A stretch of 43,621 nucleotides of DNA from Candidatus Gastranaerophilales bacterium. Lineage in GTDB: Bacteria > Cyanobacteriota > Vampirovibrionia > Gastranaerophilales > Gastranaerophilaceae. The stretch spans positions 1 through 43,621 of the forward strand of contig JAEELO010000063.1 of assembly GCA_016282705.1 (NCBI GenBank), in the 5' to 3' direction. Below the pieces are notes generated by a model. It made no database searches. It worked only from the letters and a program-made list of their open reading frames with translations, and was not told where the DNA came from. A program made the position numbers and the translations under genes. Positions 2,160 to 26,682 of the stretch are shown piece by piece. The stretch's first letter is position 1. The number at the start of each line of letters is the position of its first letter.

Positions 2160-2179
2160 TATTGTTTAAATAATAACTT

Positions 2180-2785
2180 TTACAAATTAATTAAGTACTC
2201 CAAGGTTTTATGTACTTTTTTTGCTTTTCTGTTATCAATATCTTTATAGCTGTATACTTTGCCTGTATACGGATTTATAACGCAGAATTTTGAACATACA
2301 AGCAAGAATGTTTTTTGTTCTTTATATTCGGAAACAGTAACAGGGTATACACCGTCGGGTACTGAAGAACGACCTTGTAAAATATTTTTCTTTTCTGCAT
2401 CAGTTACTAAAAGCCAATTTATCTTTTGAGGTGTATCAACCTGTACAAATTTATACTCTTTTTTAAATTCTTTTTTTTCTGATTCTTTTTTAACAGCAGC
2501 TATAAATTTATCCGCTTTCGGAGAATCTTTTAATGTAGGATATATAACAATTAATCTTGTATCATTATGCTTATCAAAAAGATATGCATAATTTACGAGT
2601 CCGTAATTAATAGCATTGGGAGATATATTTGCAAAGTCACCGTCTAAATATTTAAGCTGCTTATCGGTAAAATATCCGTTTCTTTGCATTTTTTTCTTAT
2701 TTGCGAAACAAACAAATAAGAAAATTATTAATAATATAGCTATAATAATTAAAATTAATTTTTTTATATTCATATTTCCCAACAT
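2180..2785 (-). CDS. membrane-anchored protein of unknown function
   Basis: A 201-residue protein, convergent with the kinase-like gene. After a short Lys-containing start there is one hydrophobic segment (about residues 9-28, ILIIIAILLIIFLFVCF), then a lysine-rich soluble domain of about 170 residues. The topology suggests an N-terminal anchor with the domain outside the cytoplasm. The soluble part contains a 'YPVTVSEY' strand and a CSKFC pair (CxxxC) followed by 'VINPYTGKVYSY'; the cysteines could form a disulfide or bind metal, but I cannot assign a fold. An alternative start is the Met at 2773 (MNIKKL), which follows a GGGAA and gives the more usual 'MNIKK + hydrophobic' opening. I do not recognise the family. 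Confidence 0.6.
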   Translation of the reverse strand: MLGNMNIKKLILIIIAILLIIFLFVCFANKKKMQRNGYFTDKQLKYLDGDFANISPNAINYGLVNYAYLFDKHNDTRLIVIYPTLKDSPKADKFIAAVKKESEKKEFKKEYKFVQVDTPQKINWLLVTDAEKKNILQGRSSVPDGVYPVTVSEYKEQKTFLLVCSKFCVINPYTGKVYSYKDIDNRKAKKVHKTLEYLINL

Positions 2786-2899
2786 ACTTATACTTTTACT
2801 CTCAACACTTTATTTAATTATATATTTTTTTTATTGAAAATCAAATTATAAAGAATGTTCAAACAATGCTGTATTTAAAAAAACAAATAAAAGAGGAAT

Positions 2900-4114
2900 T
2901 TATAAAGATTTGTATTCTTCCGTAACTTTTCTTATTTCGCGCACCATTTCATGATATTTTTGCGCTTTTTCGATATAGTATTCTTTCTTTGAACCAAAAA
3001 ATATTTTTGAAAATATCTTATATTTTAAGTATTTTCTGAATATTTTAGATTTTGATACCATATATGAAAGCTGTTTTTTCATAGATTGATTTTGAGATGA
3101 AAGTGTTTTATTTTCAGCTCTGGCATCTTCTAATTTTATTTTTAATCTTTCACTACGTTCTTTTTGAAATTGATGATGTTGTTTAAGACTTTCCAATCTT
3201 TCTTTTGTATTTTCCAGTCTTGCTTTTGTCTTATCTAATCTTGTATTTAGAGAGGCAATCTGTCTTTCTGCAAGATTATATTTATATATTTTAGCTGAAT
3301 CAAGTACTGAGGCATCTACAATACTGATACCTGCAAGCACTTCTTTATCAAATTCTTTTGTCTGCATAAAATCGGCAATCATTTTATCACGATTTTTTAT
3401 TGAATTATTTTCATGCCAGCGATACGAAAAAAGAATTTCATTAAGAAATTTCATCTTTGCATATTTTGAAATTTGAAGCATTATATAATAATCTTCCAAC
3501 GGAGCCTCTTTGGTATACAAGCCTGTTTTATCGAAAATTGACTTTCTTATTAAATATCCGTTTGGAATATAATTTCTATATCTCAAAGTTTCATAAGAAC
3601 CAAAGTTTTCGGAACAAAAATCAATATTGCTTCGTTTTTCAAGAAACGGTTTAAATGACAAATATACAGCTTCTTCGTGATTATATACCAGATTTCTGTC
3701 TGTATCCCAATAACATTTTCTGCTTTCTGAGTCTATAAATTCGTTATCTCCGACGACAAGAGCATAATCAGGATTTGAAGATAAGAAATCAACTTCCTTT
3801 TCTATAGCCATTGGTTTTGCTGTATCATCAGAAGCAATTATATAAATATATTCACCTCGACTTTGCATTATAAGTTTATTGAATGTAACGCAAGTTCCTT
3901 CATTTTGTTTTGTTTCATAATGAAAATTAACAAAACGCTGTTTGCATTCTGCTTCCATTTCCTGAATTTTAGAATATGTTGAATCAGTAGAACCGTCATC
4001 TATAACAATCAATTCTATATTTGGGTATGTTTGGTTAATAACGGAACGTATGGTTTCCTGTACATACTTTTCATGATTATATGAGGGTATTAAAACTGAT
4101 ACTAACGGCTGCAT
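2900..4114 (-). CDS. glycosyltransferase family 2 with C-terminal coiled coil
   Basis: Last gene of the glycan operon, about 404 residues. The GT-A domain (residues 1 to about 230) opens PLVSVLIPSYNHEKYV, followed by VIDDGSTDS and the metal/nucleotide-binding ASDD motif near residue 95. Residues about 265-345 are strongly charged with heptad-like Leu/Arg spacing (RLDKTKARLENTKERLESL), a coiled coil. The tail is very basic with aromatic residues (KSKIFRKYLKYKIFSKIFF), possibly a membrane-surface anchor. An ATG at 4129 overlaps the upstream stop (TAATG), but the ATG at 4114 has GGGAG eight bases ahead and gives the usual family N terminus, so I chose it; the longer form adds only MGEKE. Predicted role: adding one sugar to the operon's glycan from a nucleotide sugar on the cytoplasmic face. 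Donor and acceptor cannot be read from the sequence. Confidence 0.85.
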   Translation of the reverse strand: MQPLVSVLIPSYNHEKYVQETIRSVINQTYPNIELIVIDDGSTDSTYSKIQEMEAECKQRFVNFHYETKQNEGTCVTFNKLIMQSRGEYIYIIASDDTAKPMAIEKEVDFLSSNPDYALVVGDNEFIDSESRKCYWDTDRNLVYNHEEAVYLSFKPFLEKRSNIDFCSENFGSYETLRYRNYIPNGYLIRKSIFDKTGLYTKEAPLEDYYIMLQISKYAKMKFLNEILFSYRWHENNSIKNRDKMIADFMQTKEFDKEVLAGISIVDASVLDSAKIYKYNLAERQIASLNTRLDKTKARLENTKERLESLKQHHQFQKERSERLKIKLEDARAENKTLSSQNQSMKKQLSYMVSKSKIFRKYLKYKIFSKIFFGSKKEYYIEKAQKYHEMVREIRKVTEEYKSL

Positions 4115-4128
4115 TTCTTTTTCTCCCA

Positions 4129-5214
4129 TTAAAATGCATTGACCACTTCAACAACTTTTTTTACTTCGTCATCAGTTAAAACAGGTGACATCGGAAGACT
4201 CAAAATCGTTCTGTGAATTTCTTCCGTAACAGGATATGATTGATTTTCCCATTCTTTATATGCACCCTGTTTATGAGGCGGAGTAGGATAGTGTATGTTT
4301 GTTTGAATGCCGTTACTTTCCAAATATTTTTGTAATGCATCCCTGTTTTCTGTTCTTACCGCAAATATATGCCAAACATGAGCATTCTCATCATATACCT
4401 TGGGTAATTCAATCTTAGGATTTTTAATATTTTCTCTGTAATATTTTGAAATTTCTCTGCGTCTTGCATTATCTTTATCAAGATATTCAAGCTTTATATC
4501 TAAAACAGCAGCTTGCATTTCATCAAGTCTTGAATTAACACCTTTATAGATATGATGGTATTTTCTGTCCGAACCGTAATTTGCGATTGCTCTGACTTTT
4601 GCTGCAAGTTCATCATCATTTGTTGTAACGCAGCCGCCGTCCCCCAAGCATCCTAAATTTTTGCCGGGGTAGAAAGAAAATCCCGAAGCATCACCCAGAT
4701 TTCCGGTACGTTTACCTTTATATATTGCACCATGTGCTTGAGCAGAGTCTTCAATAATTTTTAGATTATATTTTTTAGCCAATTCCCATATCTTATCCAT
4801 TTGAACAGCTTGTCCGTACAAATGAACAACCATAATAGCCTTTGTTTTATCGGTAATTTTTTCTTCTATTAAATCAGGATTTATATTTCTTGTAATATTA
4901 TCCGGTTCAACAAGCACCGGTGTGCAGCCGTTTTCCGATATGGCAAGAATTGAAGCAATATAAGTATTCGCAGGAACAATTATTTCATCACCCGTACCAA
5001 AACCGTAACCTCTTATTATTAGATTAAGTGCATCAAGCCCGTTTGCGACACCGATACAATGCTTAACACCGCAATACTTTGCAAAGTCTGCTTCGAATTT
5101 TTTATCTTCCTCACCTTGCAAATACCATCCGATATCAAGAATATGTTTAATTCTTTCGTCAATTTCTTTTCTGAATCTGTTATTCACTTTTTCCAAATCT
5201 AAAAATTTAATCAT
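4129..5214 (-). CDS. fdtB: sugar 3-aminotransferase, DegT/DnrJ/EryC1 family (FdtB/QdtB-like)
   Basis: PLP-dependent aminotransferase, 361 residues, normal family length. The PLP lysine is K185 in FYPGKNLG. The ring-stacking and phosphate-site residues are also present (ANGLDALNL near 57-65, EDSAQAHG at 155-162, and GGCVTTND). In the Fdt/Qdt pathways this enzyme moves an amino group from glutamate to a dTDP-3-keto-6-deoxyhexose, giving dTDP-3-amino-3,6-dideoxy-galactose or -glucose. The assignment to a 3-amino sugar comes from context: an FdtA-type ketoisomerase and a hexapeptide acetyltransferase lie in the same operon. Galactose or glucose configuration depends on the ketoisomerase and cannot be settled here. 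It overlaps the upstream gene by 4 bases (ATGA) and the downstream start by TAATG, so translation is probably coupled. Confidence 0.88.
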
Positions 5215-6599
5215 TGTATCATCCCTTTTTGCTTTAGTATTTTACTATAATGTTTCCATATTTTATATCTGATTTTATCTTTAATTTTTTTAGGTTCTTT
5301 AAGCTTTTTTCCTTTTTTGTGTACAGCAGAATCAGTATTTTCTGCATTTACCCACTCTTTTAATTCTGCTATGCGACATAATGAAGAAATCTGCGCCTCA
5401 GAATCAGAAGAAATTGATAATTGCATTTTTGCGATATTAGAACTTAAATCAATATCCAAATAATTTTCCATTATTTTTAAGATATTATTAAATCTATAGT
5501 TATTTTCAACTATTTCGTGAGATTTTCTTACAATATCAAGCCTATAATTTTCATCTTGCAATAGCTTTTTACATTGCTTTCTTGCCTCCCAAGTATTAGA
5601 AAAATATGGAAGCTTTAAATCAGGGAAATACTTAGCAAAATCTCCATGATACTCAGTAACAAGACAACTATTTGATGCCATAACATCAAAAACTCTCCAA
5701 GGAAATCCGTTTTTTGCCTGCAAATGACCAATATTTATGCCGATTTTTGAAGAATTATATATAAATTGATTGTCTTCCAGCGAAAATACCTGCTCAGGAT
5801 GATACCTAAGAATTAATTTATGATTGTTATATGAATCATTTGCCCAAAGTGAGTTCCCCCAAATATGTAAACCCAAATCCGCAATTGCTGATAATATTTC
5901 TATTCTTCTATAATCAGACAACAAAAATATTATTTCATTGATATCAAAAGTATCCGGTATTTTTGATGATTCAACATTTTTTAAAAGTTCTTCTTTTTTT
6001 ATAAATGGATTTTCTTCAAGTTTAGAAATTAAATTTAAAAAATCTTCTCTATCATTAACATCAGGGTTAGTTTCAATAAATTTATTATAACAATTTTTTT
6101 TTGTACATCTAAATTTAGTTCCAATAAATGAAATATTGTATAAGAATTCTGTTTTTGAAGCTTTAACTTCAGTAAAGAATGGAACCTGGATAATATTTTG
6201 TTTTGGAATATTATATTCATCCTGTAATATTTCTATAGAAGTGGATGCCGCCACAAAAAATTTGTACCTTGCCGGTTTTTCTTTTATTGCATCAGTATTT
6301 CTGTAATACAGAGGAGAATCAACTTCATATATAATAATAGGACAATCAAATTCATTAGAAATATCATAAAAAGAATTGTTAAAAAGAAAAATCAAATCAG
6401 GATTATAAGACTTTATTTCATTTAGTAAATTTTCGGGAATTTTCTTAAAGTTTGCTTTCCAATCAGTATGCATTATTGCAAATACATCATTACCGGAATC
6501 TCTTAAGCCTTTTATAAAAGATTCATAAAAAATAGGCATTGCATATTTTTCATTACTTTTTTTTATACCGTTATAAAATGCTAAAAATATTTTTGCCAT
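5211..6599 (-). CDS. CgeB/YkvP-like glycosyltransferase (GT-B), paralogue of the gene at 11498
   Basis: 462-residue GT-B type transferase. The N-terminal half has Rossmann-like strands ([29 protein letters not shown]). The C-terminal half has the donor-binding block '[36 protein letters not shown]', usual in glycosyl transferase group 1_2 / CgeB-like proteins. The same block occurs in the operon gene at 11498, with which it also shares its length and a basic C-terminal tail ([22 protein letters not shown]). The two are clear paralogues, probably adding successive sugars of the same repeat. AAAGGGA lies before the ATG, after a 69-base gap that may hold a secondary promoter. The donor is unknown. 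Confidence 0.8.
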
Positions 6600-6668
6600 T
6601 AATTTAAATTCCCTTTACTTAGTTTATAATATAAATCTTTTGTATATTTTAAGAATCAGATATAAAAT

Positions 6669-8834
6669 TTATTTATAGTTAGTTTCTTTAAACAAACTTT
6701 CTAAATCAAGAATACAAGGATTATTAGATAACCTATCTTTATTCACACTATTTATTATTGTACCAATATCACTTATATTCAATTTATTTAAATCCATTTC
6801 TATGTTAATTTCTTTAAATAAAGCAGAAAAATACTTATTTATATCATTTGAAATCATTTGTTTTAAATCAGACATTATACTATGTAAATAATTAAGTCCT
6901 CTTCTATCATTGCAAGTCTTATTATTAACATTTAAATTAGCTATAAATACCCTATTAATTGTTAATGCAACTGCATGTCCATGTGGAATACCATACTCTG
7001 AAGTTATTTTATAAGATAATGCATGTGCCGCAGTAGTTCTTGAAATATTAATAGCCTTACCTGCAAGATGAGAAGCAAGCATCATATTATTTGAAGCCAA
7101 TTTATCATTTGTATTAACATATTGAACTATATTATTTTTACATAATTCTATTGCTTGTTTAGCATATTTTCTGCTTTCTTCTGTCGATTTTACAGCCCAA
7201 TAGCTTTCTATAGCTTGACAATAAGCATCCATTGCAGTACAAGCTTTTAAATAGTTCGGATTATTTACTGTTAATTGAGAATCACATATTGCATATTCAG
7301 GCAGAATATTTTTATTATCAATAGATGTTTTTATACCGTTAACATATAAAACAGCAAACTGTGTTGATTCAGAACCGGTACCGCTTGTTGTCGGAATAGC
7401 TATTAATTTTTTATTGCAATTTAAATAATATCTGAATGCCTTTGCAAAATCGATAACACTTCCACCTCCAATAGCAACAATAATATCAAATTTATAATTA
7501 ATATTTGTTATCGCTTTATCAACATCCTCTTTTTTCGGATTTGTTGAAAAATCATTATAATATTCAACTTCAAAATTTTTTAATTCATTTTCAATTATTG
7601 TTTTTATACCGATAAATGATTTTTTCCCTGTAAATACAAGTATTTTTCTTGCCTTTTCAGCATTTAATATTTTAGAGAAATTATCTATTGCACCGTTATA
7701 ACAAAAGTCAACTTGATTCAAATTTGACATAAATATTTCTTTATTTTCTTGCGGTTTTTCTTTTGGGCGCCCCAAATCGGAACGAGCACCACATTTAACT
7801 TTTATTTCAAGGAGTACAGTACATTGTTCTTGAATAAATTCAGGCAATATTTTCGCTAAATCTTCGGAATTTGAAACGGAATATGCTTTCTCATATCCGG
7901 AATCAATTGCAATTTGTCTTATATTAGCATTACTAACAGCAGTGGGTTGAGAACCGACCGAATCATGTGCTTCATTGTTAAATACTATGTGTTTAAAATT
8001 TTTAAGTTTTTTTGATGCATTTACAACTATAGAACCTTCATGCATTAAAAACGCACCATCACCATCAAAACAATATATATTTCTATCCGGTTTTTCTATT
8101 GCAATCCCTAACGCAATAGAACTCGCATGTCCCATTGAACCAACTGTTAAAAAATCTGCTTTATGAGTATGACCTAAACGGTTCCTTGTTTCATATACCT
8201 CTCTTGAAATATGACCGGTTGTTGAAACAATAATATCACTAATCGATAATTCTTTTATTACCTGTTCAATTGCTTCTTCTCTTACGAAATCAGATACAGA
8301 CTTCTGTTTATTTATTAATGTATATTGTTCGAAAATACCTTTAGGAATAATAAAAGCATATGGTTGTTTAGTATCTTCCATATGTTTAAATGCTTTATCT
8401 AACAACAATTTTGCATCATTAAAATCTTTAGGTAAAACCGAATACTGTATACCCATTGATTCTAATAGTTTATCAGTAACTTTTCCCTGCTTTATATGTT
8501 GTGGTTCATCTTTTTTACCAGGTTCACCTCTCCAACCTATAAACATCAATAGGGGAATATTATATACTTCATTATCTGTTAATGATAATAATGGATTTAC
8601 ACAATTACCAATTCCGGAATTTTGCATATAAACAAGTGCAGGTCTACCAGTAGCAAGATAATGACCTGCTGCTAATGCAATAGCATTACCTTCATTAGCA
8701 GTTATAGTATGATGAAATGTATCTGTATTATCTGTAAGATATGCACAAAAATCTTTTAATAAACTATCAGGAACACCACAAAAACAATTTATATTATGTT
8801 CAACCAAAAGATTAAAAAGTTCTTGTACTTTCAT
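6669..8834 (-). CDS. fusion: phosphonopyruvate decarboxylase + iron-type alcohol dehydrogenase (phosphonoacetaldehyde reductase)
   Basis: 721 residues in two domains. Residues 1 to about 365 are a ThDP-dependent phosphonopyruvate decarboxylase: the catalytic Glu is E48 (ANEGNA), the ThDP/Mg motif runs from DGDGAF (257-262) to NN (286-287), and the substrate signature is NEAHDSVGSQPT (287-298). Residues about 380-721 are a group III (Fe-type) alcohol dehydrogenase with the nucleotide loop GGGSVID (456-462), PTTSGTGSE, and a metal site at D536, H604 and H618. One usual His ligand is Q540 and the His four residues after H604 is Y608. I recall this variant from phosphonoacetaldehyde reductases (PhpC-like) but cannot check it. 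Together the domains would convert phosphonopyruvate to phosphonoacetaldehyde and then to 2-hydroxyethylphosphonate. The start overlaps the PEP mutase stop by one base (TAATG). Separate genes for these two steps are more usual. Confidence 0.9.
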   Translation of the reverse strand: MKVQELFNLLVEHNINCFCGVPDSLLKDFCAYLTDNTDTFHHTITANEGNAIALAAGHYLATGRPALVYMQNSGIGNCVNPLLSLTDNEVYNIPLLMFIGWRGEPGKKDEPQHIKQGKVTDKLLESMGIQYSVLPKDFNDAKLLLDKAFKHMEDTKQPYAFIIPKGIFEQYTLINKQKSVSDFVREEAIEQVIKELSISDIIVSTTGHISREVYETRNRLGHTHKADFLTVGSMGHASSIALGIAIEKPDRNIYCFDGDGAFLMHEGSIVVNASKKLKNFKHIVFNNEAHDSVGSQPTAVSNANIRQIAIDSGYEKAYSVSNSEDLAKILPEFIQEQCTVLLEIKVKCGARSDLGRPKEKPQENKEIFMSNLNQVDFCYNGAIDNFSKILNAEKARKILVFTGKKSFIGIKTIIENELKNFEVEYYNDFSTNPKKEDVDKAITNINYKFDIIVAIGGGSVIDFAKAFRYYLNCNKKLIAIPTTSGTGSESTQFAVLYVNGIKTSIDNKNILPEYAICDSQLTVNNPNYLKACTAMDAYCQAIESYWAVKSTEESRKYAKQAIELCKNNIVQYVNTNDKLASNNMMLASHLAGKAINISRTTAAHALSYKITSEYGIPHGHAVALTINRVFIANLNVNNKTCNDRRGLNYLHSIMSDLKQMISNDINKYFSALFKEINIEMDLNKLNISDIGTIINSVNKDRLSNNPCILDLESLFKETNYK

Positions 8835-10150
8835 TATTTTGCCCCCGGTATTAATGTAATTATATCCTTAATTTTCATACAATATTCATCTGAAGCTTCT
8901 TTGCATCTATGGTTACTTAAAATGGATTTAGCAGTATTCACCATCGCCGGATATGCCGAACGTAATAAGTGATTTGCATAAATTACAATATTAACTCCAC
9001 TTTTAATCAGTTCTTCCTCCGTAACTTGGTTATATGAAGATGGAACTACTACAAGAGGCTTTCTATTAGGAAGTTTATTATATCTTTCTGCAAATTCTTT
9101 TATTTCGCTATATTCTTTTTGGCGTGAATGAATCATTATACCATCGGCACCAGCATCAATATAAGTTTTTGCGCGTTCTATAGCATCGTCCATTCCTTGT
9201 TCTAGAATTAGACTTTCTATTCTTGCAATAATCATAAAATATGGAGTTACTTGAGCTTGTTTTCCTACCCTTATTTTTTCTGCAAACAATTTTTTATCAT
9301 CTTGAGTTTGTTCAACTTCGGTGCCAAACAATGAGTTTTTCTTTAAGCCTGTTTTATCTTCAATAATAATAGCAGATATACCTTCTCTTTCTAATGCTCT
9401 TACAGTAAAAACAAAATGTTCAGAAGGTCCACCATTATCTCCGTCATATATTATCGGTTTTGTAGTAACATCCAATATATCTTGCATTCCTTGAAGTCTT
9501 GTTGTTGTATCAAGATAACCAATATCAGGTTTTCCTTTTGCTGCTGATTGAGTTAAAGATGAAATCCAAATACCATCGAATTCTTCTTTCTTCCCATTAT
9601 TATCAACAAAAGTATTTTCAACTATTAAACCGGATAATCCGTTATGTGCTTCGCATATTTTTACTATGTCTTTATTTTCAATAAGTCTTTTGAGTCTTTG
9701 ACACCTTATTTCAGGAGTTGTACCGACTTCTTTCAAAATTTTATTTAAATTTGTAGACGATATACCTTGTGTATATGGAATATCTATAACTTTACCGCCC
9801 CATTGAGCCATTACATCGACTATTTGTTGCCTTGTATGAGCCTGCACACCTGTTTTCCAATCATCACCATGGAGAACATAGTCAGGCTTTATTTTTAATA
9901 AATTAGGGACATAATCCAATGTTTCTTGAGCTATAACAGAGGTTACACCCTTGACATTTTCTACTACTACTTTTCTTTGTTCCCAAGTCATATAAGGTAA
10001 TCGTTTATAACTTGCTATCGCTTTATCTGTTAATAATCCGATAATAAGTTCCCCGCCTCCATTTTTTTGAAGAAGTATTCTTGCTTGTTCAATTATGTTT
10101 AAGTGTCCCGGATGAAGTAAATCTGCACTCATACCAATATATATTTTCAT
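8834..10150 (-). CDS. pepM: fusion: cytidylyltransferase + phosphoenolpyruvate mutase
   Basis: 438 residues. Residues 1 to about 140 are a TagD-like nucleotidyltransferase with HPGH (13-16) and ISSTNL (130-135), the CTP-binding motifs of that superfamily. Residues about 145-438 are PEP mutase of the isocitrate lyase superfamily, with the diagnostic [10 protein letters not shown] (264-273), YDGDNGG (235-241) and IARIES (308-313). PEP mutase rearranges phosphoenolpyruvate to phosphonopyruvate, forming the C-P bond; every natural phosphonate pathway with this chemistry starts here. The fused domain suggests that the finished phosphonate is activated as a CMP ester before transfer, the logic known for polysaccharide phosphonates. 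The next gene carries out the following two steps. The upstream gene ends 17 bases before this start. PepM assignment is secure; the substrate of the nucleotidyltransferase domain is inferred. Confidence 0.93.
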
Positions 10151-10167
10151 AAAATGCTCCGTCCTAA

Positions 10168-11496
10168 TTATTTTAAAATGCTATTTTTTATTATTTCAAT
10201 TGCATTATCTGCAGCTGTATGATGATTTATAATTATATTTTCATTTGCCCACTTTATTCTTGATTCTTTCATACTATCATTTTGTTTTATTACAACATTA
10301 TCAATAAAACTAATTATGTCTTGTTCATTAAATGCTTTATATGTATAATCAAGCATATGAATTCCTTCGGGAATAAAATTAACAGATAAATCTTTTTTAT
10401 CATCTAAAATATAACATTGAGGATGACCTGTATAAAAATATTCAGCTAAAAAAGAACCACAATCATGAATCATGGCTGTAGATTCTGCAAATGTTTTAAA
10501 ATAATCCCCACCTTCTTGATATTCCATATTTGGAATACTTTCTATTTTATTAAGGTATTCTTTTACCCGTTTTTCTCCCCAAAACTCTTTTTTTGCCAGT
10601 TTTACAAATAATAAAGGATGTGGTCTGAATATAAAATGTATATCAGGATACATATAAGGTAATTTTAAGAAGAATTCGTAATACATCAAAAAATTAGAAA
10701 TAGAAATTGAACAGTTTGTTTTAGGCAAAGAATGATGAGGAGCAATAATAACTATCTTTTTACCGTCTTCTCTCGTAATAGTTTCATCAAAACTGTCCAT
10801 TTTAACATATCCAGTTACATAACAATTTTCTTTATTCAATACATTATTTTTATTAAATATTTCTTTTACATTATTACTTTCAATGAAGATTCGCCACATA
10901 GACTTAAAAGAATCGCTTTTTATAACATCAAACTCTTGTTGTAATTTACCAAAATAAAAATAATTAACATAACAAGGCAAGCATTTTTTTGAAAGATATT
11001 CTATCCCATAATATAAATGAGTCATATTATCATAAGGGTTTGAGAAGAATACAATATCTGTTTTATTTCTATAATCCACATATTTTTTACTGTTTTCATC
11101 ATATGCTTTAAACACATTGTTATATTCTTTATATCTGTTCAATAATGTTTCATATGTTTTATTCATTTGATAAAATGTATTTTTTTTCCCTCGTATAACA
11201 TCCGGAATAACAAGTATTTGAGGTTCAAAAAAATCACTATTAAGCATTTTTTTGAAAATAGGCTCACTAGGAAAAACACTATCAAAAACAACAGTAAAAA
11301 GAACTCGTATTTTTCTTTTTTTACTATTTTTCTTTATCTTTTTTGCCAGATAATTATAATGAATCTGAGCTAAATTCCATATAAATGTATCATTTAATTT
11401 ATTCTTTATTTTTTCTCTTAGTTGACGCCTTTTTTCTTTTATAGGCATCCAAAAAGTTAATAATTTTGCAACTGTTTCTCTCACAAATATCTCCAA
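10168..11496 (-). CDS. TagB/TagF-like CDP-alcohol phosphotransferase, candidate CMP-phosphonate:glycan transferase
   Basis: 442-residue protein of the CDP-glycerol:poly(glycerophosphate) glycerophosphotransferase type. The C-terminal catalytic half has the GT-B-like signature APHHSLP (about 254-260), FIFRPHPLL (about 294-302) and [16 protein letters not shown] (about 345-360), which matches the family's 'RPHP ... TDYSS' pattern. The first 60 residues are very basic and carry repeated [13 protein letters not shown]-like stretches, suggesting peripheral membrane binding. Family members transfer an alcohol phosphate from a CDP-alcohol with loss of CMP. Lying next to the nucleotidyltransferase-PEP mutase, this enzyme is the best candidate to move 2-hydroxyethylphosphonate from CMP to a glycan hydroxyl. 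It ends 17 bases before the PEP mutase start and starts one base after the upstream stop. The substrate is an inference from neighbours. Confidence 0.75.
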
Positions 11497-11497
11497 A

Positions 11498-12859
11498 TTA
11501 CTTAATTATATGTTTTTTCTTAAGCTTTGTATTTAAATGATTCCAAATTTTTAACCGTATTTTATCTTTTAATTTAATTTTTTTTGTAGAAGATTCTTTT
11601 TTATATCTTTCACACAATGATAAAAATTCTTCATCGGCTGTAACATTTTCAAAAGTACCTTTTAACCCAGTATGGATAAGTTTTATATTCATAATTTCTT
11701 CAATATTTTTAAAACGATGAATCCATCTTGCATTCTCATCAATATATTTGTGAGATTCTTCAACGATTTCTTTTCTTGCTTTATCGTCTTGAAGAAGTTC
11801 TTTACATATATCACGAGCTTCCCAAGGGGTATGGAACATAGGAATCTTTACATAATTTTTTGTCAATTCTTTTAAATCTGAACTTTGTTCACATACCAAA
11901 CAAGCATTAGATGCCATTATGTCAAATACACGCCAAGGAAATCCCGAACCCCGTGCCTGAGGGTGAATTGGTGATATTGAAATTTTTGAAGAATTAAAGA
12001 ACTCTTCATTTTCTTTCAATGACCATACTTGTCTTGGATCATAAGCAAATCCAAGCTGTTGAATAATTTTTGCAAGCATTTGCCATCTGTGCCCGCATAT
12101 AGTTAAACCTAAATCTAAGAGATTTATTAGTGTAATAACTCTAAAGTCAAACAATGGAACCAAATCTGTTTCTTGTATTCCTGAAATTATTTTAAAATCA
12201 CGTTCGGGATATAATGATTCATCTTGAACAAAATATTTATTATATAATTCTAAATAATTAAAATTAGCATTATCAAGATAATCCTGCATTATGTTTTTTA
12301 AATTAGTATTATATGTATTCAATCGTAACAGCCGATATAATTCACCTGAATTATAATGAATTGCGCCAAGGAAACTAATATTCATATTCTGCTCTATATT
12401 AGCTGCGTGAACAGCTGTAGCCGGAGGGACATAATAAATTTGATTATCTTTGAAACCAAAATCTAAATAGTCTTGTTTCCACTTTTTCGCAATAGAAAAC
12501 AATTTAAATCTTTTAATATTTTCTTTAATATAATTTAAATCACAAAAATATTTTAGTTCATCACCATCCCAAATTACAGTTGGAACATCATTATATTTTT
12601 CTAATATACACTTTGGAATTCTATTGTTAAATGCAATAATTATATCAGGAGCAAAATTCTCAACTTTAGACAATATATATGAATCTATATAATCGGCATT
12701 TGTTTCATTTGAAGTATATGAATTAAAATATGCAGTATTAATAGCTAAAACATTATTTCCACAATTGACAAATTCTTGAAATAAAGCGTCCCAAAAAGCT
12801 TGAACACAATTTAAACCAATTTCTTGAATTTTATAATATGAAATAAAAATATTAGCCAT
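11498..12859 (-). CDS. CgeB/YkvP-like glycosyltransferase (GT-B), paralogue of the gene at 5211
   Basis: 453 residues from the ATG at 12859. The frame can be extended upstream, but this ATG has AGGA about ten bases ahead, gives the same N terminus as the paralogue (MANIFISYY against MAKIFLAFY), and overlaps the acetyltransferase stop by 8 bases. The donor-binding block near residues 300-335 reads [34 protein letters not shown], almost as in the paralogue, and is followed by a conserved [14 protein letters not shown] segment. The C-terminal tail ([23 protein letters not shown]) is basic and amphipathic and is shared with the paralogue. Predicted to add a sugar during assembly of the operon's glycan; the donor is unknown. 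Confidence 0.82.
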
Positions 12860-13292
12860 TCTTCTTGATTCCTTTATAAATAATATTTGGCGGGACATCT
12901 TTTGTCACAACAGCGCCTGCTGCAACTAATGCGCCTTCACCTATTGTAATGCCCGGCAATATAGTTGCATTTGCACCAATACTTGCACCTTGTTTCACTA
13001 TAATAGGTTCTAATTTAAATTCTTTATTTTTTGATTTAGGATATTTATCATTGCAAAAAGCAACATTTGGACCAATAAAAACTCCATCTTCTACCGTAAT
13101 ACCGTCATATATTGAAACACCGTTTTTAACTGTTACGTTATCTCCTATAACAACGTTGTTTTCAATAAAGCAGTGAGAACATATATTACAATTACTTCCT
13201 ATTTTCGCATTGGGAAGTACTACGCAAAACTGCCATATATTTGTATTTTCTCCGATATTTTTGCTTTGAACATCTGATAAAGGATGAATCAT
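12852..13292 (-). CDS. fdtC: hexapeptide-repeat acetyltransferase (FdtC/QdtC-like)
   Basis: 146 residues built almost entirely of left-handed beta-helix hexapeptides ([62 protein letters not shown]). A loop containing the usual NDKYP segment is present. Between fdtA and the glycosyltransferase, and with an fdtB-like gene in the same operon, the natural role is N-acetylation of the dTDP-3-amino-3,6-dideoxyhexose using acetyl-CoA. The protein is a trimer in this family. It starts inside the fdtA stop (TAATG) and its last codons hold the ribosome binding site of the next gene. The usual 'GnPAK' ending is replaced by YKGIKKNG. Confidence 0.82.
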
Positions 13293-13690
13293 TAACTGTT
13301 TACCTCTCTCAAAAAGTCATCATAACTTCTTATGTACTCTTTTTCATCATAATAATCAGAAGCCAAAACCATTAATTTACAGCCATAAGAGAAGTTTTTC
13401 ATCTCTCTCCACATATTTTTGCCGATATATAAACCCACATCAGGTCTGTTAAGCCAGACTTCTTCTCGGTTTTTACCGTCATCTAATACGAACTGACAAG
13501 CTCCATCCATAGCTACAATTATCTGTTCCATATTTTTATGGGCATGCATTCCTCTGTCTTCATTAGGAAGAGTATCAAATATCCAGTAAACACGTTTTAT
13601 TTCAAATGGTATATCCCTATTTCCTTCTAAAGAAATAAGTTTTCCTCTGTTATCACCGTGTATTTTCAAGTCTATAAGCTTGTAATTCAT
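13292..13690 (-). CDS. fdtA: dTDP-4-keto-6-deoxyglucose 3,4-ketoisomerase (FdtA/QdtA family cupin)
   Basis: 132 residues from the ATG at 13690; the longer frame begins with TTG and is less likely, because GAGAG lies upstream of this ATG. It belongs to the WxcM/FdtA cupin family. The HAH pair at residues 49 and 51 ([11 protein letters not shown]) is the catalytic pair described for FdtA. Also typical are [12 protein letters not shown] near the start and the [20 protein letters not shown] ending. It converts the RmlB product dTDP-4-keto-6-deoxyglucose into a 3-keto sugar, the substrate for the FdtB-like aminotransferase. RmlA and RmlB are encoded at 24-26.7 kb. Whether the product has galacto (Fdt) or gluco (Qdt) configuration is not decided here. 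Confidence 0.88.
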
Positions 13691-13772
13691 ATGTTTACTA
13701 TCTCTCAAAAGTCTTATTAGATTCTACCATAAACATATTTTTTTAAATACATTAATAACTTTTATTTTTAAT

Positions 13773-15329
13773 TTATTTAAAGAAATTTTCAACATTTGAT
13801 ATATCAATTATTTGGGTTTTGTATTCAGGTTCTTTTTGATATTCAGAAACATTACCATTACTTATATACACAACTTTATTTTGGTAATACTTGCAAAATA
13901 AAATATAATCACTATATTTATCAGCGATAAATGTATCAAAAGAAGAATTTTCCAATCCCAGTTTTAACCCTTTACTTGGTGCAACAAAACTTAAATTTGC
14001 ACCGAATACATGTTGAGCTATAGCGTTAACATAAACGTTAACTTGCCAACAAAAACTGTATATTGATGATGGTTTAACCTTTTGTATAATATCAATTAAC
14101 TTATTTAACTTACCTTCATAGGCTTTTTGTCCAAATAATAAAGTCAAATTATCAAATTGTTTCAAATAAGCAGATATTTCAGGTTTTAAGTCATCAACAT
14201 TTTCGATTTCCGTAAGCAATATATAAACATTCTTATCATAATTGTTTTTTATTATACCCTCAATTCGTTTAAAATATGGTAAATCAATTGAATTAATAAT
14301 TGAAATATTGATTAAAATATTATTTGTATCGGATTTTAATGATTTCGAAGGCATTAATTTGTTTTTTATTGCCGCAATAAATCCGATAGTTTCTATATAA
14401 CTGTCTATTAACGGCATCTTATACATATTTTTAGAAAGAAAATTATTATTTTCTTTTATATATAAATTTAATTTTACGCAAATTTCATTTAAATACACAT
14501 CCGGAGATTGCCAATCTTCCTCGTTTGGTTCGGGAAATATATATGCTTCCAACTTTTTTATGTAACCTTCAAGTGCTTCCTTTTCTTCATTTGTATCTAA
14601 TTGTTCCAAGAAGAATTTATACATTTTTAAATTTCTTGATTTTTGCTCTTCCTGAGTCATCTTAGACCAAATTCCATCTTCGGAATATCTGTAGACTGAA
14701 CCGAAAAAATCCAAAATTTTTATTCTGCCCTTTGTGTAGAACAGGTGCATAAATGTTCTGGGATTATCTCCTCTAAACATTTCCTGCTTAAATATTTCCG
14801 GAACATTATCTTTAAAAATATTTCTGTACATATAAGTTGAAGTATGAAAATAAAATTTCATCTGTAAATAGTCTTTATAAGTATATTCAGAAGTTTTAAG
14901 TTCATACAATTTTGATTTTTTTATAAATCCGTTTGCATTCACCGTTAAATATTTATGAACAACCGCCGTATAATTTTCTTCTTTATCAGAATCAAGAAAA
15001 TCAACCTGTTTCTGAAATTTATTTCTGACGGTATAATAATCATCACCGTCTAAAACACAAAAATATTTTCCTTTTGCCGCAGATAAACCATCATAAAAAG
15101 ACAGTGCATTTCCTTTGTTTTCATCATGTTTTATTACTTTTATAAACGAATATTTTTCTTTATATCGTTCAATTATATCGGGAGTACTATCAGTAGAAGC
15201 ATCATTCACAATTATTATTTCATATTGAAAATCTGTTTTTTGCATTAAAACAGACTCAAGTGCAAGTGATAATGTTTCTTCAACATTATATACAGGCATT
15301 ATAACGGATAATTTTACTTGTTTCATCAT
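13773..15329 (-). CDS. glycosyltransferase family 2 with an unassigned C-terminal domain
   Basis: First gene of the glycan operon, 518 residues. The GT-A domain (about 1-240) opens KLSVIMPVYNVEETLSLALESVL, with IIVNDASTDST and the DxD-type motif LDGDDYY near residue 95. After a helical linker, residues about 335-518 form a separate alpha/beta-looking domain (NILINISIIN, KNVYILLTEIENVDDL, NLTLLFGQKAYEGKLNKLIDIIQKVKPSSIYSF) that I cannot assign; it could be a second transferase-like Rossmann domain. The start has no clear ribosome binding site, and a second Met follows directly. A promoter is proposed at 15379-15407. The gap of about 80 bases to fdtA has no evident terminator. Confidence 0.85.
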   Translation of the reverse strand: MMKQVKLSVIMPVYNVEETLSLALESVLMQKTDFQYEIIIVNDASTDSTPDIIERYKEKYSFIKVIKHDENKGNALSFYDGLSAAKGKYFCVLDGDDYYTVRNKFQKQVDFLDSDKEENYTAVVHKYLTVNANGFIKKSKLYELKTSEYTYKDYLQMKFYFHTSTYMYRNIFKDNVPEIFKQEMFRGDNPRTFMHLFYTKGRIKILDFFGSVYRYSEDGIWSKMTQEEQKSRNLKMYKFFLEQLDTNEEKEALEGYIKKLEAYIFPEPNEEDWQSPDVYLNEICVKLNLYIKENNNFLSKNMYKMPLIDSYIETIGFIAAIKNKLMPSKSLKSDTNNILINISIINSIDLPYFKRIEGIIKNNYDKNVYILLTEIENVDDLKPEISAYLKQFDNLTLLFGQKAYEGKLNKLIDIIQKVKPSSIYSFCWQVNVYVNAIAQHVFGANLSFVAPSKGLKLGLENSSFDTFIADKYSDYILFCKYYQNKVVYISNGNVSEYQKEPEYKTQIIDISNVENFFK

Positions 15330-15378
15330 TGTTTCTAATGGTGGAATTTTCCAAAATATTTTTCCGCTTAACTCTACA

Positions 15379-15407
15379 ATTCTATCACAAAATTTAGCGC
15401 ATCTAAA
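15379..15407 (-). promoter_or_regulatory. promoter of the phosphonoglycan operon
   Basis: On the minus strand, TTTAGA (15407-15402), a 17-base spacer and TAGAAT (15384-15379), with a TG one base before the -10 (extended -10). It lies about 50 bases upstream of the first gene, and no other promoter as good is seen before the ten genes that follow. Confidence 0.5.
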
Positions 15408-15431
15408 GAATATATTTTTATTTATACATTG

Positions 15432-15440
15432 TGCTAAAAT
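15432..15440 (+). promoter_or_regulatory. extended -10 promoter of the UbiA-family gene
   Basis: TG, one base, then TAAAAT (15435-15440), 25 bases before the ATG at 15466. AGGAG at 15452-15456 is the ribosome binding site. The -35 region is weak. The same TGnTA(A/T)AnT form recurs before other genes in the window. Confidence 0.5.
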
Positions 15441-15465
15441 ACTTGAATAATAGGAGTCTTTTATA

Positions 15466-16440
15466 ATGAAGAAGTTTGCCGCTCTTGTTAGAAATTATAC
15501 ACTTTTAATGTCTGTTGCACCGTTTTTTGTTGCCTTTTGCCTTTCATTAAAATATGCAAATACCGATTTATATACATTTTTTTTAAATACAATATTATCT
15601 TTCTCAGGCATTATTGCAATACATATGTTCGCTAATCTGTTCGACGACTATATAGACATAAAAAAACAATTAAATAAAGGTTTGGAAATACATCAAATAG
15701 ATTTTAGAAGCAAGAGAAAAGCAAAAATGATTCTTAACGGTTCTTTTTCTATGAAGACCGTTAAATACATATTAATGCTTCTGGTTTTTACTGCATTTTT
15801 AACAGGTATTTCTTTTATAATTACAAAAGGTCTTTTAGTATTACTGTTTATGATTTTAGCAATCGGCTTAAGTGCATTTTACCCGATTTCAACAAAATTC
15901 GGTCTTGGCGAAATTATTGTAGGCTTTATATTCGGCCCGTTGCTTATAAACTCTGTTTATTATGTTTTAACTGGTAATTTACATAATAATACCGCTTTAA
16001 TTTCTGTTTCCGTAGGTTTTATTACGACAGTACTATTAATTACCCAAAGTGTTATGGAATATGATTTTGATAAAAGTGACGGAAAGAAAACAGTTCCTGT
16101 AATGTTAGCAAGTCAAAAAAACGGAGTATTTGCGATATTGGGAATTATAATAATCTGTTATTTAATTATGTTATTCCTATCTTATATTAATAAAACATTT
16201 TTATTTACATTACCGGTTATTTTTACATTACCGATTTCTTTCAGACTTATAAAATCATTGAATAAATTTGTGAAAAAAGAAGACGATGAATATCTTCCTA
16301 AAATATATTTGGGAATAATGGAAAACATGAAAGAAATTAAAGAAAATAATTTTTCATTTTTTATGTTCAGATTTTATCTGGCAAGAAATTTATCAGTTAT
16401 TTTCAATCTTTTATTAGCAATTGTATGTATTTTTACATAA
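15466..16440 (+). CDS. UbiA-family polyprenyltransferase (MenA-like)
   Basis: 324-residue integral membrane protein with about eight or nine hydrophobic segments. The two Asp-rich motifs of the UbiA superfamily are present: ANLFDDYID (N57, D60/D61, D64) in the first half and MEYDFDKSDGKKTVP near residue 200. These bind the Mg-prenyl diphosphate. The 'FDDYID' form and the DGKKTVPV continuation resemble MenA (1,4-dihydroxy-2-naphthoate prenyltransferase), but sugar- or heme-modifying relatives have similar motifs and no other quinone gene is in the window. It is transcribed divergently from the glycan operon, and AGGAG precedes the ATG. If it is MenA, the organism makes or salvages menaquinone. 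Confidence 0.75.
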   Translation: MKKFAALVRNYTLLMSVAPFFVAFCLSLKYANTDLYTFFLNTILSFSGIIAIHMFANLFDDYIDIKKQLNKGLEIHQIDFRSKRKAKMILNGSFSMKTVKYILMLLVFTAFLTGISFIITKGLLVLLFMILAIGLSAFYPISTKFGLGEIIVGFIFGPLLINSVYYVLTGNLHNNTALISVSVGFITTVLLITQSVMEYDFDKSDGKKTVPVMLASQKNGVFAILGIIIICYLIMLFLSYINKTFLFTLPVIFTLPISFRLIKSLNKFVKKEDDEYLPKIYLGIMENMKEIKENNFSFFMFRFYLARNLSVIFNLLLAIVCIFT

Positions 16441-16474
16441 ATTAAACATTATTTTTTTAAATCATATTCTTTTT

Positions 16475-16483
16475 TGCTATACT
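16475..16483 (+). promoter_or_regulatory. extended -10 promoter of threonine dehydratase
   Basis: TG, C, then TATACT (16478-16483), 31 bases before the GTG start. No good -35 box. AAAGGAA at 16501-16507 is the ribosome binding site. Confidence 0.5.
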
Positions 16484-16513
16484 ATTATTGGAATTTTGAA
16501 AAAGGAATAAGCC

Positions 16514-24011: not shown

Positions 24012-24884
24012 TTAATCTTTTATTTCCGCAACATACTGATAATATGGATTTTTTGGATATTTAGCCGCAATTTGCATTAATTGTTCTTTTGAAATAAATC
24101 CCATTCTGTATGCAACTTCTTCTAAACAAGCTATTTTTATACCTTGATTGTCTTCTATGGTTTTTATATATTCAGAAGCTTGCAATAATGAACTATGAGT
24201 ACCGGTATCCAACCAAGCAAAACCACGCCCCAGTATTTCTACATATACTTTTTCATTTTTTAAATATGTATTATTTAAATCCGTTATTTCAAGCTCGCCT
24301 CTTGCTGACGGCTTTTGATTTTTAACATATTCAACTACATTATTGTTATAAAAATATAATCCCGTAACAGCATATTTAGATTTCGGATTTTGAGGTTTTT
24401 CCTCTAATGAAAGAACATTAAAATCTTTATCAAATTCAACTACTCCAAATCTCTGAGGATCTTTAACCGGATATGCAAACAAAGTTGCACCTGCATCTTG
24501 TTTTGTTCTTTCTACGGCACTTTTCAGCATCTTAGAGAAAGACGGTCCATAGAAAATATTATCGCCAAGAATAAGAGCAACAGAATCTTTACCTATGAAA
24601 TCTTTCCCCAATATAAAAGCCTGTGCCAGTCCTTCCGGTTTTGGCTGTTCAACATATGAAAATTTAACACCGAACTGTTCTCCGGAACCAAGCAATTTTT
24701 TAAAATTCGGCAAGTCCTGCGGAGTTGAGATTATAAGAATATCTTTAATTCCCGCAAGCATTAATACCGATATAGGGTGGTATATCATAGGTTTATCATA
24801 AACAGGAAGAAGTTGTTTTGATACAGCAAGTGTCGAAGGATATAAACGAGTACCTGCTCCGCCTGCTAAAACAATACCTTTCAT
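24012..24884 (-). CDS. rmlA: glucose-1-phosphate thymidylyltransferase
   Basis: 290 residues, full length. The N terminus [17 protein letters not shown] is the nucleotide-binding signature, followed by [17 protein letters not shown] and the [10 protein letters not shown] metal site. [19 protein letters not shown] and the [11 protein letters not shown] block complete the family picture. It makes dTDP-glucose from dTTP and glucose-1-phosphate, the first step toward dTDP-rhamnose and toward the dTDP-3-amino sugars of the operon at 3-15 kb. Its start overlaps the rmlD stop by 4 bases (ATGA). Confidence 0.96.
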
Positions 24885-25702
24885 TCACACCTCAATTCTA
24901 AATAATCTTTTAGTGCAGTTTCCCATTTTCTGCAAATTTTGTCATTTTCCATAATACTGTTTTTCGGACGATTTGCAGGTCGAGGAAACTCATCAGTACT
25001 ACAAGGTTTTAAGTTAACGTTAATATTGCTCAGTTCAAATATCTTTTTTGCAAATCCATACCAGCTTGTATGACCGGAACCGCATATTTGGTATATTCCG
25101 TACGGTTTTTTCTCAGTTATTAATTTTACTATACCGTTAGCAAGTTCAACAGTCCAAGTAGGACATCCCACTTGATCATCCACAACTTTGAGTTCCGGTT
25201 TATCTTTTAAACTAAGCATTGTTTCAACAAAATTTTTACCATGGTGGCCATATAACCAGCTTGTTCTCGTAATATAATATTTTTCACAAGACTGAACTGC
25301 TTTTTCACCTGCCAATTTTGATTCACCATATACATTTATAGGATTTGTTTTATCATTTGGAAGATATTTATCCTTTTTTGTTCCGTCAAAAACATAGTCA
25401 GTAGAAATATAAATCAATGTTATATCAAGTTTTTTACAAACTTCGGCAATATTTTTTGTACCGTCCGCATTAATTTTATATGCCGTTTCTTTATCTTCTT
25501 CAGCTTTATCAACATTTGTATATGCTGCACAATGAATAACATAATCAGGCTTATATGTTGTCAAAACTTCTTCAACATTTTTTGGATTTGTTATATCCAT
25601 TGTGTCTATATCAGTTTCAATAACATCAAAATCAATATCTTCAAGTATCGGACATAAATCCTGTCCGAGCATTCCTTTTGCACCCGTTACAAGCACTTTC
25701 AT
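24881..25702 (-). CDS. rmlD: dTDP-4-dehydrorhamnose reductase
   Basis: 273-residue short-chain dehydrogenase. The nucleotide motif is [10 protein letters not shown] (7-16), the catalytic triad includes the STDYVFDG segment and YGESK (YxxxK), and [10 protein letters not shown] near the middle is characteristic of RmlD. It reduces dTDP-4-keto-rhamnose to dTDP-L-rhamnose with NAD(P)H. That reaction needs the epimerase RmlC, which is not encoded in this window; the only related cupin here is the FdtA-type ketoisomerase. RmlC may lie elsewhere. It is translationally coupled to rmlB (TAATG) and rmlA (ATGA). Confidence 0.93.
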
Positions 25703-26682
25703 TATACGGCACCGACTTTCTTATTCTCTATACTCTTTATCCAATCCTGATTTTTCAAATACCAATCAATTGTTATTTTTATACCTTCTTCAAAAGTTAA
25801 AGACGGTTCCCAACCCAATTCTTTCTGGATTTTATCATTGCATATTGCATATCTTCTGTCATGTCCGAGTCTGTCTTTAACATATTCGATAGAAGATTCA
25901 TCCTTACCCATTGCTTCCAATATTAATCTTGTTATTTCAAGGTTTGTTTTTTCATTGTGCCCGCCAATATTATATACTTCACCGATTCTGCCTTTGTGAA
26001 GGACAGTATCTATTGCACTGCAATGGTCATATACGTATAACCAGTCACGTACATTTAAACCGTCACCATATACAGGAACTTTTTCATTCTTTAATAACTT
26101 AGAAATAAAGAACGGAATTAATTTTTCGGGATACTGATATGGCCCGTAATTATTAGAGCATCTTGTATTTAATACAGGCATTTTATATGTCTCATAATAA
26201 GCTCTTACAACTAAATCTGCACTTGCTTTAGAAGCAGAATACGGACTATTTGGAGCTAAAGGCGTTGTTTCATAAAAATATCCGGTTTTTCCTAAAGTCC
26301 CGTATACTTCATCTGTAGATACCTGAAGATATCTTTGTATATTATTTTCTTTTGCAGCCTGTAAAAGATTTAAAGTTCCCTGTATATTTGTTTCAATAAA
26401 TATTTCAGGTCCGGTAATAGAACGGTCAACATGGCTTTCAGCTGCAAAATTAACAACAGCATCAACTCCCTGAATTATTTCATTTACCAATTTTTTATCG
26501 CAAATATTTCCATGAACAAATGTATAATTCGGATTGTCTTTTATGTCATTAAGATTTTCTATATTACCTGCATATGTTAATGCATCTAAATTTATTATTT
26601 TATAATCAGGATATTTATTAAGCATATGTCTCACAAAACAACTGCCAATAAACCCTGCGCCGCCTGTTACGATTATTTTCAT
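25702..26682 (-). CDS. rmlB: dTDP-glucose 4,6-dehydratase
   Basis: 326-residue extended SDR. The NAD motif is TGGAGFIGS (6-14); NLDALTYAGN, FAAESHVDRSI, the active-site STDEVYG and YSASK (YxxxK) are all intact, as are RCSNNYGPYQYPEKLIPF and NVRDWLYV. It makes dTDP-4-keto-6-deoxyglucose, the branch point between rhamnose (rmlC/D) and the 3-amino-3,6-dideoxy sugars (fdtA/B/C). First gene of rmlB-rmlD-rmlA. GAGG sits about nine bases before the ATG, with TATAAT boxes further upstream. Confidence 0.96.
   Translation of the reverse strand: MKIIVTGGAGFIGSCFVRHMLNKYPDYKIINLDALTYAGNIENLNDIKDNPNYTFVHGNICDKKLVNEIIQGVDAVVNFAAESHVDRSITGPEIFIETNIQGTLNLLQAAKENNIQRYLQVSTDEVYGTLGKTGYFYETTPLAPNSPYSASKASADLVVRAYYETYKMPVLNTRCSNNYGPYQYPEKLIPFFISKLLKNEKVPVYGDGLNVRDWLYVYDHCSAIDTVLHKGRIGEVYNIGGHNEKTNLEITRLILEAMGKDESSIEYVKDRLGHDRRYAICNDKIQKELGWEPSLTFEEGIKITIDWYLKNQDWIKSIENKKVGAV

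Follow-up and report, generated by a model that had tools for sequence, protein, structure and literature searches.

A ten-gene operon of a Gastranaerophilales-type bin, predicted to place 2-hydroxyethylphosphonate and a 3-acetamido-3,6-dideoxy sugar on a glycan

Gene content and proposed pathway

The window analysed here is the whole 43,621-nucleotide contig JAEELO010000063.1, which is contig C88 of a 2.2 Mb genome bin named Candidatus Gastranaerophilales bacterium (124 contigs, 91.2% complete, 7.6% contaminated). Ten open reading frames (ORFs), all on the minus strand and running from 15329 to 2900, combine phosphonate, dideoxysugar and glycosyltransferase genes. We propose that this operon probably makes two activated donors, the cytidine monophosphate (CMP) ester of 2-hydroxyethylphosphonate (HEP) and a deoxythymidine diphosphate (dTDP)-3-acetamido-3,6-dideoxyhexose, and that both are put on one cell-surface or secreted glycan. 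The ten genes, in reading order and with phosphoenolpyruvate abbreviated to PEP, are:

13773..15329, minus strand: gene 1, family 2 glycosyltransferase (residues 8-174; PF00535, 110.5 bits) with a long C-terminal part without a family, 518 aa
13292..13708, minus strand: FdtA/QdtA-like dTDP-4-keto-6-deoxyglucose 3,4-ketoisomerase (PF05523, 180.5 bits, cut-off 23)
12852..13292, minus strand: FdtC/QdtC-like hexapeptide N-acetyltransferase, 146 aa (PF00132; PDB 7s3u)
11498..12898, minus strand: glycosyltransferase of PF13524 (43.4 bits), with an internal ATG at ~12859 that is probably the true start
10168..11496, minus strand: remote TagF-like GT-B transferase, 442 aa, TTG start (assigned through relatives and a model), putative CMP-HEP:glycan phosphonotransferase
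8834..10150, minus strand: cytidylyltransferase of the Fom1 type (residues ~1-145) fused to PEP mutase (~149-438) (PF01467, TIGR02320)
6669..8834, minus strand: phosphonopyruvate decarboxylase (residues ~1-372) fused to an iron-type alcohol dehydrogenase (~376-721), putative phosphonoacetaldehyde reductase (TIGR03297, PF00465, PF25137)
5211..6599, minus strand: glycosyltransferase of PF13524 (43.5 bits)
4129..5214, minus strand: FdtB/QdtB-like DegT-family sugar 3-aminotransferase (PF01041, 386 bits, cut-off 19.8)
2900..4129, minus strand: tenth and last gene, family 2 glycosyltransferase (PF00535, 99 bits)

A preliminary description of this DNA had named a ten-gene phosphonate and glycan operon; all ten ORFs are open, and assignments made with Pfam and NCBIfam profiles at their curated cut-offs agree with the families it gave for all but the TagF-like protein, which matches no profile directly. 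FdtA, DegT, the acetyltransferase, the four glycosyltransferases and the alcohol dehydrogenase pass the Pfam cut-offs, and PEP mutase and phosphonopyruvate decarboxylase pass those of NCBIfam. PF13524 is presumably the CgeB-like label. At four of the nine junctions the genes overlap by 1-4 bp; four others are gaps of 1, 17, 64 and 69 bp, and the nominal overlap of 47 bp at the ninth (12852-12898) falls to ~8 bp if the glycosyltransferase begins at its internal ATG. The ketoisomerase has a TTG start, and an internal ATG at ~13690 may be the true one. Scanning 2100-15700 for promoters and terminators yielded fewer matches than shuffled sequence (81 against 93.4, and 2 against 4.2, respectively), and hence do not inform the limits of the operon.

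The phosphonate enzymes are recognised by curated models. PEP mutase reaches 386 bits with TIGR02320 (cut-off 319.55), and its translation contains the EDKX5NS motif (10 protein letters); phosphonopyruvate decarboxylase reaches 468 bits with TIGR03297 (cut-off 312.5), and the domain fused to it belongs clearly to the iron-type alcohol dehydrogenases (109 bits with PF00465, cut-off 31.3). The closest solved relative of the cytidylyltransferase domain is 5x3d, with 86 of 134 aligned residues identical (64%). This PDB entry is named PEP phosphomutase, and we take it to be the Fom1 domain. By homology, the window's domain is a Fom1-type putative HEP cytidylyltransferase. According to excerpts from Rice et al. 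2019 (PMC6697681), the cytidylyltransferase domain of Fom1 makes CMP-HEP, and 59.5% of PEP mutases carry a further domain, 23.6% being fused to PF01467, so that this kind of fusion is known and common.

The sugar set is complete in the window, since the ketoisomerase, the 3-aminotransferase and the N-acetyltransferase are accompanied by RmlA and RmlB, encoded in a separate gene group:

24012..24884, minus strand: rmlA, glucose-1-phosphate thymidylyltransferase (TIGR01207, 462 bits, cut-off 361)
24881..25702, minus strand: rmlD, dTDP-4-dehydrorhamnose reductase (TIGR01214, 310 bits, cut-off 224), not needed for an Fdt/Qdt sugar
25702..26682, minus strand: rmlB, dTDP-glucose 4,6-dehydratase (TIGR01181, 493 bits, cut-off 365)

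The Fdt/Qdt-type sugar named in the preliminary description is upheld by the families and the closest PDB chains of all three operon enzymes. The closest chain to the acetyltransferase is the N-acetyltransferase 7s3u (E 4.7e-65), and those closest to the aminotransferase are 7n63, 5u1z and QdtB (3frk); we take 7n63 and 7s3u to be Helicobacter pullorum enzymes of the Qui3N route. With the ketoisomerase, 5tpu (WlaRB) and 7n67 come ahead of FdtA (2pa7) and QdtA (4zu7). WlaRB is an enzyme of the Qui3N branch. The window's ketoisomerase is 65% identical to it and has R at the WREM position, as WlaRB does, where FdtA has H; R or H at this position presumably tells the branch. A table in PMC9095892 identifies the entry 5tpu as WlaRB of Campylobacter jejuni. 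Judged from these sequences, 3-acetamido-3,6-dideoxyglucose (Qui3NAc) is somewhat more likely than the galactose form (Fuc3NAc). The genome has a second, more distant FdtA-family gene (C56:6237-6620, 119 bits; C-numbers denote contigs of the window's bin).

From the enzyme families we infer the following reactions. PEP mutase would convert PEP to phosphonopyruvate, which the decarboxylase half of the fused enzyme would turn into phosphonoacetaldehyde and the alcohol-dehydrogenase half into HEP; HEP would then be activated to CMP-HEP by the cytidylyltransferase part of the mutase fusion. In the fosfomycin route, decarboxylation and reduction come before CMP activation. RmlA and RmlB would supply dTDP-4-keto-6-deoxyglucose, and the ketoisomerase, the DegT aminotransferase and the hexapeptide acetyltransferase would convert it to dTDP-Qui3NAc or dTDP-Fuc3NAc. 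The four glycosyltransferases would assemble the chain, onto which the TagF-like enzyme would move the HEP phosphonate from CMP-HEP.

The phosphonate head group across related loci

PEP mutase was searched for with a profile in 383 genomes of the order. Matches were found in 55 of them (54 over the cut-off), and the locus is thus not isolated in its lineage, contrary to what the preliminary description implied. The comparison loci (L-numbers, such as L141) are stretches around PEP mutase: 58 places in the order outside the window's own genome, and 80 named loci, kept out of 111 confirmed places that a search by similarity to the window and six relatives had turned up. The counts exclude mutase matches below 150 bits, L151, where longest-frame ORF calling failed, and L096, which had a weak first match and no PEP mutase ORF. 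The 137 mutase ORFs, less 33 duplicates, leave 104 distinct ones, of which 84 are fused to a cytidylyltransferase of the Fom1 type, 13 to one of another type, and 7 to neither.

Within the order, 37 of the 58 places have a cytidylyltransferase at least 71% identical to that of the window. At 19 others the mutase is 59-62% identical to the window's and the cytidylyltransferase is clearly different (none was seen in L045). One of these, L047, has a PhnW-AepZ aminotransferase (481 bits, cut-off 360.8) and a separate nucleotidyltransferase of the NTP (nucleoside triphosphate) type. The remaining two (L091 and L096) have a distant mutase or none. Fom1 itself (5x3d) carries the window-type residue in 14 of the 16 columns by which the two fusion types can be told apart.

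The neighbours of the mutase follow the fusion type. Counting genes on the same strand within six ORFs and 8 kb, a reductase lies near 81 of the 84 Fom1-type fusions, a non-random sample with much shared ancestry whose count is no statistical test, and PhnW lies near one (L057, which holds both). Near the other fusion type a reductase was found in 0 of 13 cases and PhnW in 10 of 13 (all but L041, L051 and L095). The seven mutases with neither fusion have a dehydrogenase nearby in one case (L056) and PhnW in none. Among the three Fom1-type cases without a reductase (L144, L150 and L153), the sequence of L144 stops just after the decarboxylase. In a tree of the 104 mutase rows, the window falls in a fully supported clade of 53 rows, and the order's non-Fom1 mutases, L091 excepted, form a fully supported clade of 19 rows; the bootstrap had not converged, the tree does not resolve Fom1-type rows beyond the 53-row clade, and row L094 has a long branch and may be broken.

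The order Gastranaerophilales thus holds both HEP-type loci and loci of the 2-aminoethylphosphonate (AEP) type. The preliminary description had predicted HEP as the head group, and had looked to related genomes for conserved co-occurrence. Both points find agreement here, in the cytidylyltransferase type, the adjacent reductase and the lack of a PhnW over the cut-off in the genome, and in the joint presence of Fom1-type fusion and reductase in 81 of 84 distinct cases. Comparison therefore gives strong support to HEP rather than AEP as the predicted head group. If this is right, one could tell from the cytidylyltransferase type in the PEP mutase fusion which of the two phosphonates a genome makes.

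Three side observations concern these loci. L057 (= L098), at 9048-17893, has an HEP cassette together with PhnW, a PntC-like gene, LicD and a fusion of a glycosyltransferase to a TagF-like protein, and may add two different phosphonates. In L046 (5018-8902), L051, L053, L054 and L055, a fusion of a radical SAM protein to a second cytidylyltransferase lies beside PEP mutase and decarboxylase, with LicD near in three of the five and neither reductase nor PhnW near in any; the family scan was made on L046, and the other four were assigned by BLAST likeness to it. These five represent another type of phosphonate locus within the order, whose head group is not obvious. The decarboxylase and the dehydrogenase are fused in 37 of 82 distinct cases, the window included, and are two separate genes in the other 45. 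The fusion occurs in Gastranaerophilales bins, unnamed bins and three Akkermansia bins (L132, L140 and L170), and may channel the aldehyde.

Phosphonate transfer, acceptor and competing readings

The 442-aa TagF-like protein gave no direct sequence match in Pfam, NCBIfam or PDB. Its relatives were more informative: with PF04464 (cut-off 22.1), L156 scores 29.5 bits, L138 falls just under at 21.2, and L123 has no match. When a 21-sequence alignment was compared by hhalign with seven PF04464 proteins of the order, they matched at 98.7% (E 3e-16) over 292 columns, and the APHHS, RPHP and DCGSF stretches of the window's protein aligned on the APT/S, HP and DYSS stretches of the PF04464 proteins. 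The predicted model (pLDDT 84, pTM 0.82) is GT-B-like. In Foldseek, UDP-GlcNAc 2-epimerases rank first (E 1e-10), and Staphylococcus aureus TarL with CDP-ribitol comes at rank 22 (E 1.5e-8). The TagF-like label of the preliminary description is thus borne out by homology to PF04464, through relatives and hhalign. Seven of 24 distinct TagF-like genes, that of the window included, directly adjoin a phosphonate cassette gene, and in one of the seven (L061), as in L057, the TagF-like part is fused to a family 2 glycosyltransferase. These data suggest the TagF-like protein as a candidate HEP transferase. TagF-like enzymes serve in flagellin glycosylation; flagellin was considered as the acceptor and dropped, as a genome search gave no flagellin match. 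In L123 (4736-8340) and like loci, an opposite-strand block encodes a TagF-like protein together with a radical SAM protein, a glycosyltransferase of family 2 and a small protein of uncertain family; the block recurs next to the HEP cassette of several genomes.

A free hydroxyl is left on HEP but not on AEP, and HEP could for this reason be placed within a chain. If the TagF-like enzyme used CMP-HEP and glycosyltransferases then acted on the free hydroxyl of HEP, the product would be a teichoic-acid-like polymer with phosphonate-ester bridges. The fusions of TagF-like proteins to family 2 glycosyltransferases in L057 and L061 fit such alternating synthesis, but we regard the idea as improbable. 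Were it true, in-chain phosphonate-ester bridges would replace phosphate diesters and resist phosphatases.

The head group would be AEP if a class V aminotransferase encoded elsewhere acted on phosphonoacetaldehyde and the dehydrogenase had another role. A search of the window's genome with TIGR03301 (PhnW/AepZ) gave three matches, none over the cut-off of 360.8; the best two, class V aminotransferases on contigs C46 and C76 with 184 and 141 bits, are the candidates for such an enzyme, and the related locus L057 shows that a reductase, PhnW and a PntC-like gene can stand together. Both scores are far under the cut-off, however, and 14 of 14 control genomes likewise give matches below the cut-off and none over it. 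Both proteins score higher with the BhcA model, though again below its cut-off. Homologues of the C76 protein (E up to 1e-30) occur in 146 of the 383 genomes of the order; those at least 56% identical are found in 24 genomes, the window's own included, and five of these (again with its own) carry PEP mutase. The C76 enzyme was considered as a diverter to AEP and set aside. With PhnW near one of 84 Fom1-type fusions, an AEP head group is very unlikely.

Two other readings keep HEP and change its destination. HEP could be an intermediate only, on the way to a diffusible, fosfomycin-like small-molecule phosphonate with glycosylation; the fusion of a Fom1-type cytidylyltransferase to PEP mutase is indeed that of the fosfomycin route (excerpts of PMC6697681). 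The scans of the ten genes recognised no tailoring enzyme such as a methyltransferase or an epoxidase. What the operon has in its place are four glycosyltransferases, a set for an activated sugar and a TagF-like transferase, and we consider a small-molecule product very unlikely. Alternatively, HEP could be carried by a lipid- or protein-linked glycan and not by a long polysaccharide (a capsule or lipopolysaccharide chain, for example), a reading that partly overlaps the one we favour. Polymer export genes were not recognised in the operon, and in excerpts of a 2022 PNAS paper (PMC8931226) phosphonate on protein-linked glycans is proposed for marine microbes. The lack of a flagellin match in the genome makes that acceptor unlikely, and L156, which has the cassette, a TagF-like gene and the sugar set, also encodes a Polysacc_synt_3 flippase and an acyltransferase, which point to a lipid-linked glycan there. 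We hold a lipid- or protein-linked glycan to be possible, if rather unlikely.

Decoration of a cell-surface or secreted glycan with HEP and the dideoxy sugar remains our preferred reading, against which several observations weigh. The reductase domain fails TIGR03405, the family of phosphonate iron alcohol dehydrogenases (143 bits, cut-off 423.7), so that its putative substrate rests on context. Group III iron alcohol dehydrogenases bind metal through Asp-His-His-His. The window's domain has Asp, Gln, His and His at these positions, and among 82 distinct dehydrogenase domains, its own included, the second position is Gln in 67 and His in 15, the other three being invariant; metal use may therefore differ from that of other group III enzymes. 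In L150 and L153 no reductase was detected near the Fom1-type mutase, although the sequence continues downstream (L150 is near a contig end on the upstream side only). The preliminary description had reported no AEP aminotransferase, and none exceeds the cut-off at the locus or in the genome, an absence that is provisional because the bin is 91% complete and 7.6% contaminated. The transfer step could belong to another protein, given that 17 of the 24 TagF-like genes do not lie directly beside a cassette, many of them sitting in the different, opposite-strand block, and that LicD-type genes are near 16 of the 84 Fom1-type cases. Pfam and NCBIfam scans recognised no flippase, polymerase or ligase in the operon, and a genome search with PF01943 gave one match, barely over the cut-off (28.7 against 28.2 bits). 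Finally, of the order's 383 genomes 55 carry PEP mutase, 107 carry FdtA and 15 carry both, where 15.4 are expected; a genome-wide link between the two was rejected, as they co-occur at chance level. The acceptor and the surface location of the putative phosphonate are offered as suggestions.

Distribution, host and relation to known systems

The host is a Gastranaerophilales-type bin, an assignment based on the binning and on the kin of the mutase. The nearest mutases among named records are those of L097-L101, 88-91% identical to the window's, with which it groups with full support in the mutase tree. They come from one goat-rumen bin, three RUG bins, which are presumably of rumen origin, and 'Cyanobacteria bacterium UBA3803'; many of the next-closest carry the name Candidatus Gastranaerophilales. 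Base composition gives no clear sign of foreign origin: in 2 kb steps the G+C content is 26-32% in the operon and 26-35% in the window, ranges that overlap. Gastranaerophilales are a little-studied, non-photosynthetic branch beside the cyanobacteria. If our reading is right, those of gut and rumen have a coat containing a carbon-phosphorus compound, which phosphatases are unable to strip off. Chemistry of this type is known already, and the lineage is one for which no description was found: the open-licence literature, as far as its partial texts go, yielded no phosphonate work on Melainabacteria or Gastranaerophilales, excerpts of PMC7375171 had nothing on the lineage either, and within that scope the preliminary statement that none had been described from the lineage stands.

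The HEP cassette spans several phyla. The preliminary description had thought its combination with an Fdt/Qdt sugar new; this was not borne out, as the combination recurs in L141, L156 and L163, and the pairing is modular and recurrent. In L141 (named Alphaproteobacteria) FdtA lies by the HEP cassette, and the acetyltransferase and the aminotransferase are 80% (over 136 residues) and 78% identical to those of the window. L156 (Prevotellaceae) has the HEP cassette, a TagF-like gene, two ketoisomerases, an acetyltransferase, an aminotransferase and a flippase, and in L163 (Akkermansiaceae) FdtA is seven ORFs from the cassette, outside the six-ORF count. No FdtA label was found in the 58 stretches around PEP mutase in the order's other genomes.

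The mutases of three Alphaproteobacteria and five Akkermansia bins (L132, L134, L137-L141 and L170) fall inside the 53-row clade that the window shares with the Fom1-type genes of Gastranaerophilales, and the record titles of four of these eight name rabbit, sheep rumen or buffalo rectum. If the contigs are rightly binned, the same HEP cassette in these bins suggests exchange between gut lineages; the alternative is mis-binned contigs.

The locus shares features with several known systems. The domain order of the mutase protein is that of Streptomyces Fom1 in the fosfomycin route (excerpts of PMC6697681), the cytidylyltransferases are 64% identical, and CMP-HEP is the predicted product; unlike that route, the window has a fused decarboxylase-dehydrogenase, glycosyltransferases and a TagF-like gene, and the later fosfomycin enzymes were not recognised among its genes. 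A phosphonate on an extracellular glycan also recalls the phosphonoglycans of the actinobacteria Glycomyces and Stackebrandtia (Yu et al. 2014), which reportedly contain HEP. An actinobacterial 'producer of phosphonoglycans' is mentioned in an excerpt of PMC12723261, and such phosphonoglycans appear in a reference title in PMC8931226; HEP as esters on a marine polysaccharide is known from PMC9381506, likewise an excerpt. Pnt loci for AEP, with PntC and LicD, resemble the window in PEP mutase, decarboxylase, CMP activation and surface-glycan context. They differ in having a PF12804 cytidylyltransferase and an AEP transaminase (Rice et al. 2019, PMC6697681, in excerpt) in place of the PF01467 Fom1-type domain and the reductase. 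The TagF-like protein is like the CDP-polyol phosphotransferases TagF and TarL (PF04464) in its 292-column profile match and GT-B-like model, and unlike them in lacking a direct Pfam match and in the Foldseek ranking of UDP-GlcNAc 2-epimerases above TarL. In the Qdt and Fdt pathways to dTDP-Qui3NAc and dTDP-Fuc3NAc, including WlaR of C. jejuni, all three sugar enzymes of the window have close solved relatives.

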